NCBI GenBank assembly: GCA_023137125.1
Contig: JAGLPW010000081.1
Span: forward strand, 1-34,821
DNA from: Candidatus Cloacimonadota bacterium
GTDB taxonomy: Bacteria > Cloacimonadota > Cloacimonadia > Cloacimonadales > TCS61
Direction: 5' to 3'
Length of the DNA: 34,821 bases
The notes beneath the pieces are model-generated. The model was not told the origin of the DNA. It saw only the letters and a program-made list of their open reading frames with translations, and ran no database searches. The position numbers were made by a program, and so were the translations under genes. This document shows positions 20,366 through 34,414 of this stretch, one piece after another. The first letter of the stretch is position 1. Every line of letters begins with the position of its first letter.

Positions 20366-21439
20366 CTAGATGTTATCAGCTAGCTTAATTTTACCCTGTA
20401 ATTCTTTCTCTTCCAATATTTCCATTTCCGCTAACGCTTTATTAAGCAGAATAACACGTTCTCGGTATGGTATAAATGCACTTTTAAATCCATTGATTAT
20501 TATATTCTTTATATCGGAATAATCCAAACCTAACTCATTGATCGCAAGCATATATTCTTCGGTAAGAGTAGTATCTGAGACTAAGCGATTATCCGTATTA
20601 ATGGTAACACGCATTCCGTAATCAAGATAAAAGTTTAGCGGGTGTTGTTTGAGGCTGGGAACCGATTTTGTATGCATATTGCTCTTTAAACAAATCTCCA
20701 GTGGAATCCGATGGTCATTTACATAGTTCAATAGATCTCCATCTTCTATAAGTCTAGTCCCATGTCCAATACGATGAGTACCACAATAATGCAACGCTTC
20801 ATGAATACTCTTGGGTCCATAAGCTTCCCCGGCATGAATTGTTATATTTATATTATTATTCAACGCAAGGTAGAAAGCTTCCATATGATCTTTTGCCGGA
20901 TAATTGTATTCTGCACCTGCAAGATCAAAACCGATCACACCTTTATTTTTGTAGGCAACAGCCAGCTTTGCTAATCTTAATGATTTATCGGGATCCATAT
21001 TACGGATTCCGCAAATAATAACTCCGGCTCTGATATTATATTTTTTCTCTGCTTCCCGCAATCCTTTAAGTACAGCATCCGAGATAACAGTTAATTTAAG
21101 TCCTTTTTGAGTGTGTAAAATGGGAGAATAGCGTACTTCTAAATATCTTATATTCTCTTTTGCTGCATCTTCGGCAAGTTCAAAAGCAGTTCTAATTAAT
21201 GCATCTTCTGTTTGCATAACACTTAAAGTTATATCAAATGCTCTTAAATATTCATCTAAACTTTTACAGTCTTCATCACAACAAATTATTTTTTTTAGTT
21301 CTTCTTCTGTGTCAGCAGGGAGCTTGACCTTTTGTTTTTTTGCAAGATCAAAAATTGTAGAAATTCTAATTGATCCATCCAGGTGAACATGTAGATCTGT
21401 TTTTGGTAATTTTTCAATAAATTCTCTTTTTAGTTTCAT
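20366..21439 (-). CDS. add: Adenosine deaminase
   Basis: LPKTDLHVHLDGS, IHAGEAYG, HRIGHGTRL, VTINTDNRLVSDTTL. GGAG-type SD supports ATG 21439 rather than ORF start 21451. Confidence 0.9.
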   Translation of the reverse strand: MKLKREFIEKLPKTDLHVHLDGSIRISTIFDLAKKQKVKLPADTEEELKKIICCDEDCKSLDEYLRAFDITLSVMQTEDALIRTAFELAEDAAKENIRYLEVRYSPILHTQKGLKLTVISDAVLKGLREAEKKYNIRAGVIICGIRNMDPDKSLRLAKLAVAYKNKGVIGFDLAGAEYNYPAKDHMEAFYLALNNNINITIHAGEAYGPKSIHEALHYCGTHRIGHGTRLIEDGDLLNYVNDHRIPLEICLKSNMHTKSVPSLKQHPLNFYLDYGMRVTINTDNRLVSDTTLTEEYMLAINELGLDYSDIKNIIINGFKSAFIPYRERVILLNKALAEMEILEEKELQGKIKLADNI

Positions 21440-21488
21440 ATAAAACTCCACTATATTTTAATAATATACATTTTCTAGTTTTAAAATA

Positions 21489-22049
21489 TTATAATTCCCA
21501 TTTATCATAACTAATTATGTTCTTTAATTCATTTCTCTTCTTACTTTGTGCAAACACTTTTACAGCCTTTTCATATAATGATTTCTTTTCTTTTGGATAA
21601 CCAAATGGGCTTAGAGCTACAATTCTAATATTTTGGGGAATCTCAAGAATCTCACGTACTTTCTGTTCGTTAAAAGCAGCAAGCCAGCAGCTTCCTATTC
21701 CGTGATTCCAGGCAGAAAGCATCATCTGTTGAAAAGCAATTGTAGTATCTACAAGATAATAATTTTGATCGTTCATCGTTCCACTCTTTGCTGGATCAGC
21801 ACAAGCAACAATAACTATAGGAGCATCTTTGATAAAAAAATTAACTTTACTGATCATCCCGCTTCTAAGGGCTAGATCTTTTATTAAATCTTTATCTCGG
21901 ACAACTATAAACCGCCAACATTGTCTGTTTTGAAAAGATGGAGACAGCCGAGCTGCCTCCATCATGTTGTTCAAAATATCTTCAGGGATTTCTTTATCCC
22001 GAAAACTTCTTACACTTTTACGTGAAATTAATACTTCATCAAATTCCAC
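21489..22049 (-). CDS. Nitroreductase family protein
   Basis: 186 aa; SRKSVRSFRDKEIPEDIL; ARLSPSFQNRQCWRFIVV; GIGSCWLAAF. Confidence 0.92.
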   Translation of the reverse strand: MEFDEVLISRKSVRSFRDKEIPEDILNNMMEAARLSPSFQNRQCWRFIVVRDKDLIKDLALRSGMISKVNFFIKDAPIVIVACADPAKSGTMNDQNYYLVDTTIAFQQMMLSAWNHGIGSCWLAAFNEQKVREILEIPQNIRIVALSPFGYPKEKKSLYEKAVKVFAQSKKRNELKNIISYDKWEL

Positions 22050-23020
22050 TAAAATGAAACTCCAATTCCAGCATTAAATACAGAGTACTTACTTATTGTA
22101 TAATCTGCATAAAGTTTCAATAGAAGCAAACTATATCTGATGCCAGCTGTTGCTCTGACTTCATTCTCACCATCAACATCAAATTTGATCTCTTGCTCTA
22201 AAGACACAATTTCATTATCTTGGTTAAGTGTCTGATATGTATAATCATATTCAGCAGTAACATTTGTCTTATCATAACCTACACCTGTATAAAGTGTCCA
22301 CATCAGAAGTTTCTTACTTACTTCGAGATTAGCATTGAAATTTGTAAATGTTAAGATGTCGCCAACATAAAGATTTTGGAAGGCAACCTGAGCTGCTATA
22401 TCAATTGGAATAAGTGGAATGTATTGGCTTACACTGTGCTTCAAACCAACACCCCAGAATCCGAGATCACCAATATCTTTATTGATCTCAACTTTAGGGA
22501 AACCACGGATCATTATTTCATTTCCAAATGGTAATCCCAAATTAAATTGAGGCATTAAGAATGGAATAGCAGGAAGATCTGCTCCATTTGGTAAATCTAT
22601 ATCTAATTGAGCTGCATCTAAGCCCGGAATATCATCAAGAAGCGGATTATGTACAAAGGTAGCACCATCTTCACCAAAAACTGTTGCCGACTCCAACTCT
22701 TCATCCGCATAAAGATAGATAACCTCACCTGGATTTAATGGATCATCAATGAAAAGATTCGGTCTAATAGCAGTGAAAATTTTATCTTCATCAGGCACAA
22801 AAGCCAACATCATATTCACATTCAAACCAAAAGCGAAAGGCTTAAGAACCTTGGCTGTATTGAAAAGCCCAGTATTCATTGTTGTCCCAAATGCCGTAAC
22901 CAAAGGTTTTACATACACTAAACCATTGTCTTCCCCAAATTGCTCCAGTTTCTCCTGAACACCAGCAAATAAAGCTGTGATCATAACTATTAATAATAAA
23001 CTTAAAAACGTTTTTTTCAT
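22049..23020 (-). CDS. Predicted exported or outer-membrane protein (DUF6588-like)
   Basis: Signal peptide MKKTFLSLLLIVMITALFAG; amphipathic beta strands; C-terminal FNAGIGVSF. Confidence 0.65.
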   Translation of the reverse strand: MKKTFLSLLLIVMITALFAGVQEKLEQFGEDNGLVYVKPLVTAFGTTMNTGLFNTAKVLKPFAFGLNVNMMLAFVPDEDKIFTAIRPNLFIDDPLNPGEVIYLYADEELESATVFGEDGATFVHNPLLDDIPGLDAAQLDIDLPNGADLPAIPFLMPQFNLGLPFGNEIMIRGFPKVEINKDIGDLGFWGVGLKHSVSQYIPLIPIDIAAQVAFQNLYVGDILTFTNFNANLEVSKKLLMWTLYTGVGYDKTNVTAEYDYTYQTLNQDNEIVSLEQEIKFDVDGENEVRATAGIRYSLLLLKLYADYTISKYSVFNAGIGVSF

Positions 23021-30139: not shown

Positions 30140-32584
30140 CTAAAATCCCAATCTCAACCCAGCTACAAAATTACGTCCGGCTGCTGGCCAGTAATAATTT
30201 GCTCCACTCCAGTTTTGTCCACCCCACGGGTCATAATAACCGGCAGTTTCATATTCTTCATCTAGAATGTTATTTACTCTCAGATTCAATTGCAGATCGG
30301 TTTTACCAAAGAGTTTTGCGATATTAATAACTGCACCAACATTAAGCACTTTAAATGGGTCGATTGTACGATCTTCATTTTCTGTATTATCCAGATATTG
30401 TTTCCCAACATATTGCATTTGAGCAAAAAGATTTAAATTACCATTATTATATGCAAGTTTCCCATTACTAATAACACTTGGGAATCCAGCAATCGTATTA
30501 CCGGAAAGATCAATTTCTTCTCCCCAATCATACATTATAAATTCTTCGAAATAATTATCGCTGTAACTGAAATTACCGGATAATTCCAGATAAGCAGGTA
30601 ATTGTGCTTTTGCAGAGAGTTCCACACCTCTATGTACAGTTTTGTCGGCGTTCCCTCGGATTGGACTTCCTTCATCATCCGCACCACCATAAGCTACGAT
30701 CTCGTCAGTAAAGTTCATCCAATATAGATTTGCTTTCAAATCCCAAATTCCACCTGTGTAGCCAATCCCCATTTCATAATCCAGCAATTTCTCCTCTTTC
30801 ACATAAGGATCACTCCAGTTGATATTTTCAACATTTTCATCATCAGTAAATACAGTATCTGCTACGGCAAAGAGAGGTGATACACCCAGATCATCCGGTC
30901 CGTCCCATGTATCATAAAGTTCGCTGTCTGTAGGTTCTCTTTGAGAAACCGATATGTTCCCATAAATATTGAAATTCTCATTCACATTATAATTAACCCC
31001 AAATCTTGGATTAAAGAAATTGTAATCCACTTCATAGGCATTCAGGAATTCTCCGCTGAAATTACCTGATTCCAGCTGTTCAAAACTGTAATTTATGTGT
31101 TGGAAATAAAGATTTGCCATAATTGACAGGTTATCGATTGGCTTGAATATTTCATTCACATATACAGTTAAATATTGTTTCTCCCCAATATAATTGTAAT
31201 AATTCTGACCACTGTCATAATCTATGCTAAGCGTGTCGGCACCAATTACTTGCGTTATCTCTCCCCAATGATCACTATCGAATAAACTAAGATACGTTCC
31301 TGCTGTAAAAGTCCCTTTTTCATGATGTAAATTGTATTGTGAAACCCAGCCATAATGATTTTTAGTTACCCATTTCTGACGGATAATATCAGCCTCATCA
31401 TCATTATCTTCCGCGACAAGACCGTGTTCCCAAAGATTACGACCTTCTTTATACTGCTCGTAGAAACCATTCCCACGGATGTAGAAAAATGAGTTTTTTA
31501 TATCCGATCTTTCATTCAGTAAATAACTATTATGCAATTCAAAATGAGGTTGGGAAAAATCATCTACATAATTCTCGTATGTGTATGGATTGTGCTGATG
31601 GTTCTCTTCCAGTTGCCAATCTCCAGATGCTTCCCAGGCTGCATGTGTAAGCTCATGTCCTGTATAAAAATTAAGTTCTGTAATCGATCTCTCACCCATT
31701 CTGGAAAGATTTGTAAAAACAGACCAGAGCTCGGAGGCTGAATTATCCCGATAACCATCGGAAGCAATTTTTGAAAATCGGATATTTGTACTATATTTTC
31801 CAAACTTTTGGGCAGTTTTTATTCCAACTTTATAAGTATTATAACTTCCAAAGACACTAAAAAACTCTGTTTTATTTTCTTTAACAAAAGTAGAAGTCTG
31901 CATATTTAGTGAACCGCCAAAAGTGGAAATCCCATAAAGGGAACTTCCCACACCACGTTGAAATTGTATATCGGATGTACTCTCTGCAAGATCCGGCATA
32001 TTAACCCAGTAAACATTATGATCCTCTGGGTCGTTAAGCGGGATCCCATTTATCATCACACCAATTCGCTTTTGATCGAAACCACGGATTTTAAGATATG
32101 CATTCCCTACCAGACCACCTGCATCAGAATAAGCATATACTCCCGGAACATCTTCCAGCAACATTGGAATTTCCTGCCCAAAATTGTTTTGAAGAACCTG
32201 TTCCTGAGCCAGATTTGTAAAAGTAACCGGTGTTTCACGATCTTTTGCTTTTGTGGCTGATACTTTCAACCCTGAAATATTCTGTGGTTTTTTTGTAAGC
32301 TGCATATTCAGAACAGATGTATCAAATGGATTATGTTCCACAACTCTTTTTTCATAACCGATTCGTTCAAAGACAATCTTGAAAATTGCTGGTTTAATGA
32401 AGTTCATCATATATTGTCCATCCGCATTCGATGTTGCTGACAAGTTTATACTTTCAACATACACACTAACTCTGTCTATTGGTTCTCCTGTTTGTGAATC
32501 GGTAATTTTCCCTATTAATTGATCAGCAAAAGCCAGACTGCTGATAACAATTAATCCAATTAAAATACAAATAACTTTTTTCAT
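30140..32584 (-). CDS. TonB-dependent receptor with N-terminal carboxypeptidase-regulatory-like domain
   Basis: 814 aa; signal peptide; GKITDSQTGEPIDRVSVYVE; plug domain (EIPMLLEDVPGVYAYSDAGG, LKIRGFDQKRIGVMINGIPLNDPED); C-terminal VAGLRLGF. Confidence 0.94.
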   Translation of the reverse strand: MKKVICILIGLIVISSLAFADQLIGKITDSQTGEPIDRVSVYVESINLSATSNADGQYMMNFIKPAIFKIVFERIGYEKRVVEHNPFDTSVLNMQLTKKPQNISGLKVSATKAKDRETPVTFTNLAQEQVLQNNFGQEIPMLLEDVPGVYAYSDAGGLVGNAYLKIRGFDQKRIGVMINGIPLNDPEDHNVYWVNMPDLAESTSDIQFQRGVGSSLYGISTFGGSLNMQTSTFVKENKTEFFSVFGSYNTYKVGIKTAQKFGKYSTNIRFSKIASDGYRDNSASELWSVFTNLSRMGERSITELNFYTGHELTHAAWEASGDWQLEENHQHNPYTYENYVDDFSQPHFELHNSYLLNERSDIKNSFFYIRGNGFYEQYKEGRNLWEHGLVAEDNDDEADIIRQKWVTKNHYGWVSQYNLHHEKGTFTAGTYLSLFDSDHWGEITQVIGADTLSIDYDSGQNYYNYIGEKQYLTVYVNEIFKPIDNLSIMANLYFQHINYSFEQLESGNFSGEFLNAYEVDYNFFNPRFGVNYNVNENFNIYGNISVSQREPTDSELYDTWDGPDDLGVSPLFAVADTVFTDDENVENINWSDPYVKEEKLLDYEMGIGYTGGIWDLKANLYWMNFTDEIVAYGGADDEGSPIRGNADKTVHRGVELSAKAQLPAYLELSGNFSYSDNYFEEFIMYDWGEEIDLSGNTIAGFPSVISNGKLAYNNGNLNLFAQMQYVGKQYLDNTENEDRTIDPFKVLNVGAVINIAKLFGKTDLQLNLRVNNILDEEYETAGYYDPWGGQNWSGANYYWPAAGRNFVAGLRLGF

Positions 32585-32623
32585 TTTTACTCCTTTTTAT
32601 ATTTTTTCCTACTCTTAAAATAA

Positions 32624-32662
32624 CAAAAAACCACATCCCAGCGAAATACCGGAATGTGGTTT
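32624..32662 (-). terminator. Rho-independent terminator between TPP riboswitch and TonB receptor (expression platform)
   Basis: Minus strand AACCACATTCC-ggtatttcgct-GGGATGTGGTT followed by TTTT: 11 bp stem with one G-U. Confidence 0.88.
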
Positions 32663-32685
32663 ATCTAATAAACTATCATTTTCTT

Positions 32686-32770
32686 CATATTTCCTCCACC
32701 GGCATTATCCGGATCAGGTTCAAGGGTATATTCTCAGCTTTAGTATAACTACTTCAGCACCCCTAAATCA
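32686..32770 (-). promoter_or_regulatory. TPP (THI-box) riboswitch upstream of the TonB-dependent receptor
   Basis: Minus strand TAGGGGTGCTG...CTGAGAATATACCCTTGAACCTGATCCGGATAATGCCGGTGGAGGAAAT matches the THI-box consensus. Confidence 0.96.
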
Positions 32771-32892
32771 GATTACTTAATTTTCTAAAGATCTTATGAA
32801 GGAAAAAATCTTCATCTTGTTTTTTGTGTCAAAGATTTTCTCACTTTTTAGAAATAATTTGACTTATTAACCTCAAGATCGAATTTCAATAA

Positions 32893-32978
32893 TTGGATAA
32901 CAGGGGAGCCAAAATAAATGGCTGAGAAGTGAATATCACTCAACCCTCAGACTTATCGGATAATGCCGAAAAAGGAGT
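32893..32978 (+). promoter_or_regulatory. TPP (THI-box) riboswitch, diverged, upstream of the sodium:solute symporter
   Basis: Plus strand ACAGGGGAGCC...GGCTGAGAAGTGAATATCACTCAACCCTCAGACTTATCGGATAATGCCGAAAAAGGAG. Confidence 0.88.
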
Positions 32979-32983
32979 TGCAC

Positions 32984-34414
32984 TTGGAATTTGAATTAAC
33001 TGTAGATTATAAAACAATCTTGAGTAAATTAGATTGGTATGTCTTTTTCGGAATTTTGCTTTTAACCTTTTCATCTGTAATTTACGGACAATATTTAAAA
33101 AAGAAGAAAGGAAAATCCTTCAATAATAATGAAGTTCGCTTTTTAGATCTATTCTTGATGGGAAGACAACTAACTCTTCCAATGTTCGTAGCAACCCTAG
33201 TTGCCACCTGGTATGGTGGAATATTTGGTGTAACAAAAATCGCCTTTGAGCAAGGAATATTTAATTTCATAACTCAAGGCGTTTTCTGGTATATCTCATA
33301 CATTCTATTTGCATTTTTCATTGTGCATAAAGTTGCAAAATATAAAGCTATTACACTCCCTGACCTAGTAGGAAAAATGTTCGGACCAAGTGCAGGAAAG
33401 CTGAGTGCAGTTTTCAATTTTTTCAATGTATTGCCAATTGCCTACGTTATTAGTTTAGGGCTTCTCATACAGGCATTATTTGGAATTTCATTTCTTCAAG
33501 GAATGATCATTGGCGTCACAGTTGTAATTCTTTACACACTTTATGGTGGTTTCAGAGCTATTGTTTTTTCTGACATAATCCAATTTTTTGTAATGTGTTT
33601 GGGTGTTTTTTTAATTCTTTTATTTTCATATAAACTATTTGGCGGAATAAGTTTTTTAGAAGCAAATCTGCCTGCTGCTCATTTCACACTTACCGGAGGA
33701 GAGGGAATTGCAACTACACTGGTTTGGGGATTCATAGCCCTATCCACTCTGGTTGATCCCAATTTTTATCAGAGAGTTTTTGCTGCTAAAAGCACTAAAG
33801 TAGCAAAAAGAGGTATCTTGATCTCTACAATTATCTGGATACTATTTGATATTTGTACAACAGTTGGTGCGATGTATGCCAGGGCAGTAATTCCGGAAGC
33901 AGCTTCCGATAAAGCCTATCTGATCTATGCCCTTCAAATATTACCGGATGGGATTAGAGGATTAGTTTTAGCGGGAATTTTAGCCACGATCCTTTCAACT
34001 TTAGATTCATATCTTTTCATTGCAGGAACTACTGTTTCTTATGATATGATGCCAAAAAAATGGAAAGGTAAAGTATCTCTTTATCATTTAGGAATAATCT
34101 TTGTAGGAATACTGGCTATTCTAATGGGCATCGTATTTGAAGGCAATATTAAAGCTGTCTGGAAAACACTGGGAAGCTACTCTGCCAGTTGTTTGCTTCT
34201 TCCTGTTCTTTACGGATATATTTTCCCCGGAAAGATAAAAGATCATCAATTTGTTTTTTCCAGCATTTTGGGTGTTATAACTGTAAGTGTATGGCGAAAT
34301 ATAACCTTACCTGGCTTCTGGCAGAATGTGGATGAACTGTATATGGGAATTGTGGCTACGTCGTTTGGATTAGCAAGTTATGGTCTTGTTTATAAATACA
34401 TTCTAAAAAAATAA
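32984..34414 (+). CDS. Sodium:solute symporter family transporter; candidate thiamin/precursor transporter by riboswitch context
   Basis: Multi-TM SSS pattern (LMGRQLTLPMFVATLVATWYGGIFGVTKIAFEQG; YTLYGGFRAIVFSDIIQFFVM; DPNFYQRVFAAKS). ORF called at 32963, but that ATG lies in the riboswitch; AAAGGAG precedes TTG 32984. Confidence 0.87.
   Translation: MEFELTVDYKTILSKLDWYVFFGILLLTFSSVIYGQYLKKKKGKSFNNNEVRFLDLFLMGRQLTLPMFVATLVATWYGGIFGVTKIAFEQGIFNFITQGVFWYISYILFAFFIVHKVAKYKAITLPDLVGKMFGPSAGKLSAVFNFFNVLPIAYVISLGLLIQALFGISFLQGMIIGVTVVILYTLYGGFRAIVFSDIIQFFVMCLGVFLILLFSYKLFGGISFLEANLPAAHFTLTGGEGIATTLVWGFIALSTLVDPNFYQRVFAAKSTKVAKRGILISTIIWILFDICTTVGAMYARAVIPEAASDKAYLIYALQILPDGIRGLVLAGILATILSTLDSYLFIAGTTVSYDMMPKKWKGKVSLYHLGIIFVGILAILMGIVFEGNIKAVWKTLGSYSASCLLLPVLYGYIFPGKIKDHQFVFSSILGVITVSVWRNITLPGFWQNVDELYMGIVATSFGLASYGLVYKYILKK

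Follow-up and report, generated by a model that had tools for sequence, protein, structure and literature searches.

How would a bacterium that apparently cannot make thiamin bring the vitamin across two membranes, and do both importers answer to the same signal? The question is raised by contig JAGLPW010000081.1 of a Candidatus Cloacimonadota bacterium (assembly GCA_023137125.1), analysed over its whole 34,821 nucleotides and called the window below. Here, two elements of the thiamin pyrophosphate (TPP) riboswitch type lie back to back between divergent genes for a TonB-dependent receptor and an SSS-family symporter. We read the locus, with a probability of roughly 0.8, as a module for thiamin salvage in a bacterium unable to make thiamin, in which the aptamer on the symporter side would be a derived variant. 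The genome is a draft of 2.93 Mb, estimated to be 86 % complete. From close symporter matches we infer that it belongs to Candidatus Tenebribacter, a genus described previously (PMC8542988): the nearest named relatives in the symporter search were Candidatus Tenebribacter mawsonii, burtonii and davisii, along with other Cloacimonadota (among the best 80 of 328).

An earlier note on this DNA had placed two opposite-facing THI-boxes within about 400 bp, one preceding the receptor and the other the symporter, and both placements held. The search with RF00059 on both strands (cmscan) gave 57.1 bits for the minus-strand element, over the gathering score of 54.3, and 51.3 bits for the plus-strand element, under that score and recovered with the gathering score lifted (E value 3.2e-9 for a 501-base stretch, about 4e-9 per genome). 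The two aptamers are oriented head to head with 117 bp between them, and they are the only credible TPP elements in the whole genome. A third match (C149, 24.2 bits) falls within a coding open reading frame (ORF) and was rejected as a chance hit. The plus-strand copy stays under the Rfam cut-off because it deviates from the family systematically; since this deviation is systematic and the element recurs at the same position in 16 relatives, a chance match is excluded. A search of the stretch between the aptamers gave no promoter of the sigma-70 consensus, a result of little weight in this phylum. The domain searches confirmed both downstream genes. The receptor matched PF00593 (beta-barrel) and PF07715 (plug), both over cut-off, as well as the carboxypeptidase-regulatory-like domain PF13715, and the symporter matched PF00474 (SSF) with 101.6 bits.

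The linkage of the divergent pair is kept in relatives. We compared 40 genomes of the family, ten of them from the genus of the window. A TPP element was present in 34 of the 40, and aptamers placed back to back between receptor and symporter in 15, belonging to five genera: nine of the ten genus members and G003, G008, G009, G010, G011 and G024. The contig end cuts one gene of the pair in two of these nine genus members (G036 and G037). G017 and G028 have the symporter element on a contig without the receptor. In G002, G004, G007 and G022 the genes are still divergent neighbours and the symporter-side element is absent or a remnant, as judged by eye and with a model.

Regarding the receptor side, all 28 aptamers found in the family were classed as canonical. 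The sequence following P4 is GAU or GAA in every copy (GAU in the window, whose copy also has the UGAGA T-loop), and the G60, C77 and G78 contacts are complete in 27. The window's own copy carries C77U, with J5/4 reading UG where the other 27 have CG, and is otherwise canonical. Our own canonical model R2, built without symporter-side sequences, scored 89.1 bits on this side versus 16 bits on the other. The aptamer is followed by a 15-pair hairpin with a T-rich tail, a predicted intrinsic terminator (the scan found 1 against 0.3 expected), and the minimum free energy (MFE) fold of the receptor leader, made up of aptamer and terminator, has a z of -4.4. Among solved structures, a profile search returned only distant TonB receptors for the receptor protein, e.g. 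the pyrroloquinoline quinone (PQQ) transporter 9c4o, YncD and FecA.

The symporter side has a different pocket. In the thiM riboswitch of E. coli, G60, C77 and G78 make the contacts to the pyrophosphate and to its metal ions (PMC3764141; PMC7824784). None of the 17 symporter-side aptamers of Cloacimonadota has C77-G78 at J5/4, and 14 have lost G60. J4/5 is shortened to 1-2 nt and J5/4 reads AA, A, AC or UA in all 17. The T-loop CUGAGA, which corresponds to the aminopyrimidine pocket, is invariant in all 17 copies. The proposal of the earlier note that both genes respond to TPP was therefore not borne out as stated, because with the pyrophosphate contacts lost such a response cannot be assumed for the symporter. 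The note had also missed the variant pocket itself, the Shine-Dalgarno sequence lying inside the aptamer, and that receptor and symporter side differ in their expression platforms.

Selection preserves the core of this variant. Between Cloacimonadota genera the core columns (helices and T-loop, chosen by us) are on average 89 % identical and the whole aptamer 69 %, compared with 37 % at four-fold degenerate sites of the symporter and 42 % in upstream DNA. Helix pairing is kept in 91.8 % of alignment cells versus 36-62 % in slid controls, reaching 98 % in helix 5 (P4 and P5) and 90 % in P1. Covariation is weak, as the helices hardly vary.

Searched with the alignment of the symporter, genome contigs yielded 328 relatives from Bdellovibrionota, Elusimicrobiota, Cloacimonadota and others, the best 80 being mostly from Bdellovibrionota and Elusimicrobiota. 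Orthologs of Bdellovibrionota and others have a TPP-type element directly before the gene, and in most of them AAGGAG is the 3′ end of P4. The 22 copies from other phyla that could be parsed all keep G60 (followed in one by CU instead of A), and their J5/4 is C/U-G. As these orthologs keep the contacts, the Cloacimonadota variant appears to be derived. No TPP element was detected at the Elusimicrobiota symporter loci with either model.

Parsimony slightly favours, among the ligand readings, an aptamer that still binds TPP, its affinity retuned because a Shine-Dalgarno sequence had to be fitted into the P4 3′ strand and J5/4. We regard this as quite possible, at somewhat less than even odds. 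The altered bases coincide with the site where AAGGAG is built into the aptamer, and receptor and symporter could plausibly respond in a graded way. However, the orthologs from other phyla embed AAGGAG and yet keep G60 and the J5/4 CG, so an embedded Shine-Dalgarno sequence does not force the loss of contacts. A more tentative reading is that the element represents a variant TPP class sensing thiamin or thiamin monophosphate (TMP), in which the pocket is kept, the pyrophosphate grip is lost and the ribosome-binding site is hidden directly. If true, the receptor would be controlled by TPP and the symporter by thiamin, i.e. two ligands for the importers of two membranes. No validated variant of the TPP riboswitch whose ligand specificity has changed is known to us, a statement that does not take in the 2017 survey of variant riboswitches.

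It seems rather unlikely that the aptamer is decaying and binds no ligand, its conserved stems only setting a constant translation level. The loss of pyrophosphate contacts in all 17 copies and the missing or remnant elements of four relatives speak for decay, but the T-loop, P2, P5-L5 and P4 show no or almost no variation across genera whose synonymous sites are saturated, and it is this selection signal that makes loss of function less likely. Moreover, a ligand-free attenuator would need neither CUGAGA nor G72 nor the aminopyrimidine pocket. Aptamers that are under selection and consistently altered, with the pyrophosphate-contact nucleotides gone though kept in other phyla, are one addition that this locus makes to what is known.

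Regarding the substrate, the earlier note had taken the lack of visible thiamin biosynthesis genes as consistent with salvage and named thiamin or a precursor such as hydroxymethylpyrimidine (HMP) as the imported compound. The searches agree with salvage: ThiC, ThiE, ThiL and ThiD were over the curated cut-off in 0/10 genus genomes each, with positive controls matched, and thiamin pyrophosphokinase (TPK) was found in seven of the ten. The sub-cut-off matches of ThiC, ThiE and ThiD in the genus were rejected as fragments or related folds. The best ThiL match in the window's genome was rejected as well, being an AIR-synthase-type protein (PF00586/PF02769) that resembles HypE, judging by its N-terminus, and not ThiL. 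The known route needs ThiE to join HMP to thiazole, so in its absence thiamin itself, taken up intact, would be the useful import. In the family, the symporter occurs in 22 of the 40 genomes (the search gave 21, to which G017 adds a partial copy). ThiE passes the cut-off in five, and the two never occur together; the chance of zero overlap is about 0.013, not corrected for relatedness. The ThiE genomes have TPP elements before thi operons of two kinds. In G019 and G006 (L066, L064) the riboswitch precedes Thi4-ThiE-ThiC, and in G014, G019 and G029 (L071, L067, L070) it is followed by a class I S-adenosylmethionine (SAM) methyltransferase and ThiM, then by ThiE, ThiL and ThiD where the contig reaches. 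Judging from gene content, related genera of this family would range from full thiamin synthesis to pure import.

Gene context points to thiamin as well. In Elusimicrobiota (L135-L161) the SSS symporter is joined with TPK in a unit of two genes: the next gene, about 47 bases after the Elusimicrobiota-type symporter, is TPK in 17 of 18 loci, and in the exception the contig ends first. Among 28 symporter-bearing genomes of other phyla TPK was matched in 24 and ThiE was over cut-off in three. In four Cloacimonadota genera lacking the symporter (G016, G018, G021 and G023; L077-L080), the gene facing the same riboswitch-controlled TonB receptor in divergent orientation belongs to a YkoEDC-type operon, which consists of PF09819, a double ABC ATPase and CbiQ; no TPP element was found on the YkoEDC side of these loci. 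In two of them (G021 and G018) birA adjoins the receptor, as in the window. The inner-membrane partner has thus been exchanged in place opposite the receptor, which is the strongest argument for the symporter acting as a thiamin importer.

Taken together, the substrate of the pair is best read from these contexts as intact thiamin rather than HMP. The thiamin half of the earlier proposal gained support from the presence of TPK and from the TPK operons of Elusimicrobiota, and the HMP half lost it with the absence of ThiE and ThiD. A role of the pair in importing HMP or a related vitamer instead is very improbable here. Such a role was proposed for ThiV of SAR11, an SSS symporter that is controlled by a TPP riboswitch and for which HMP uptake was measured (PMC11452348), and an NMT1/THI5-like binding protein, of a family often tied to pyrimidine precursors, does adjoin TPK in the genus. 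But with ThiE, ThiD and ThiL below cut-off in all ten genomes HMP could not be turned into TPP by the known route, and in Elusimicrobiota TPK is next to the symporter. The earlier note expected that the symporter's substrate could be assigned by context. The other addition made by this locus is that a widespread SSS symporter family can be linked to thiamin from three contexts independent of each other, namely its TPP elements, its operons with TPK and its standing in for YkoEDC opposite the same receptor.

In the mechanism that we propose, the TonB-dependent receptor would carry scarce thiamin over the outer membrane, the ThiV-like symporter would move it over the inner membrane with Na+, and TPK would convert it to TPP. 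Na+ coupling is assumed from family membership; members of Candidatus Tenebribacter are said to build Na+ gradients (PMC8542988). Abundant TPP would bind the canonical aptamer of the receptor mRNA and the intrinsic terminator would halt transcription, which is how an aptamer followed by a terminator is usually interpreted. On the symporter mRNA, ligand binding would hide AAGGAG and block translation, and no further expression platform is needed because P4 and P1 include the ribosome-binding site. Other riboswitch classes, e.g. NAD+-I (PMC10043782), are known to have an aptamer that directly overlaps the ribosome-binding site. The symporter-side variant would bind TPP differently or more weakly, or else sense thiamin or TMP.

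Several points weigh against the salvage module as we describe it. All the evidence comes from sequence. It bears directly on the two elements and how they are conserved, on the linkage of the genes, on the lack of biosynthesis genes, on the contexts with TPK and YkoEDC and on the loss of contact residues, and only by inference on substrate, Na+ coupling, switching and ligand. The absences rest on the ten genus members jointly, of which four are more than 90 % complete, and the window's genome is itself incomplete. TPK was not found in G032, which is 95 % complete. The loss of the symporter-side element in G002, G004, G007 and G022 may, like the lost contacts, mean a decaying switch. The MFE of the symporter leader is ordinary (z -0.7) and thus uninformative. 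Finally, a cluster of the NMT1/THI5-like binding protein, an ABC permease and TPK is conserved in the genus (L037 at G000:C179, about 21,100-23,000; also L036, L038 and L039). It is a possible second, non-riboswitch route for thiamin vitamers, and the symporter may not be the sole inner-membrane route.

The start of the symporter gene deserves attention. Its longest ORF opens at the ATG at 32963, within the aptamer's own loop L5 (AUAAUG), and automatic annotation (window 32963-32965) would put the start inside the riboswitch. In most relatives the ORF starts at the codon that corresponds to TTG 32984, six bases past AAGGAG, and this TTG is therefore the likely start. The protein is PanF-like: its best NCBIfam equivalog is panF (81.6 bits, far under the equivalog cut-off), and the profile search against solved structures gave only distant matches to SGLT and choline transporters. 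The features of the locus are collected in Table 1.

Table 1. Features of the divergent receptor-symporter locus (positions in the window)
Feature	Position	Strand	Evidence
TonB-dependent receptor, 814 aa, predicted outer-membrane thiamin receptor	30140..32584	-	PF00593, PF07715, PF13715
Intrinsic terminator, receptor-side expression platform (predicted)	32628..32662	-	Terminator scan; MFE fold
TPP (THI-box) aptamer of receptor gene	32674..32774	-	RF00059 57.1 bits; own canonical model R2 89.1 bits
Variant TPP-type aptamer of symporter gene	32892..32993	+	RF00059 51.3 bits; conserved in 17 genomes
CUGAGA T-loop (aminopyrimidine pocket)	32922..32927	+	Alignment, invariant 17/17
P4-J4/5-P5-L5-P5-J5/4-P4 = CUU A UCGG AUAAUG CCGA AA AAG	32952..32974	+	G60, C77, G78 absent
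Shine-Dalgarno AAGGAG = P4 3′ strand + first base of P1 3′ strand	32972..32977	+	Sequence, pair counts
SSS-family symporter, 476 aa, likely TTG start, ThiV-like, predicted Na+:thiamin symporter	32984..34414	+	PF00474

Compared with known systems, both elements match the RF00059 family. The receptor-side one is typical, with its intrinsic terminator, and the symporter-side one departs from the family in its missing C77-G78 and, in most copies, G60, in its short J4/5 and in the Shine-Dalgarno sequence inside P4/P1. Omr1 and ThiV were first predicted from THI elements (Rodionov 2002, as cited in PMC2211319), and both are listed in PMC10881298. The window symporter resembles ThiV of SAR11 (SAR11_0811), compared here by its description, in being a PanF-like member of the SSS family with a TPP-type element upstream. 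For HMP/thiamin symporters the residues Tyr78, Asp139 and Phe254 (SiaT numbering) were reported (PMC11452348). Unlike for ThiV, the context here (no ThiE or ThiD in the genus, and a TPK operon in orthologs) favours thiamin over HMP. In Bacteroides, OMthi and PnuT are a tested, riboswitch-controlled pair of outer and inner thiamin importers (PMC5613172). The window shares with the OMthi (Omr1)-PnuT-Tnr3 system a TonB-dependent outer receptor and an inner importer, each under TPP-type riboswitches, but it has an SSS symporter in place of PnuT, its genes are divergent, and its two riboswitches differ in mechanism and pocket. In sister genera YkoEDC(F), the ECF-type thiamin/HMP transporter, takes the position that the symporter has here, facing the same riboswitch-controlled receptor, but it is energised as an ABC transporter and the symporter, by prediction, through Na+ symport. 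That riboswitches control thiamin importers of both the outer and the inner membrane is already known. The locus in the window brings together a receptor resembling Omr1 and a symporter resembling ThiV as one divergent pair; its substrate is likely to be thiamin, and one of its two aptamers is non-canonical.

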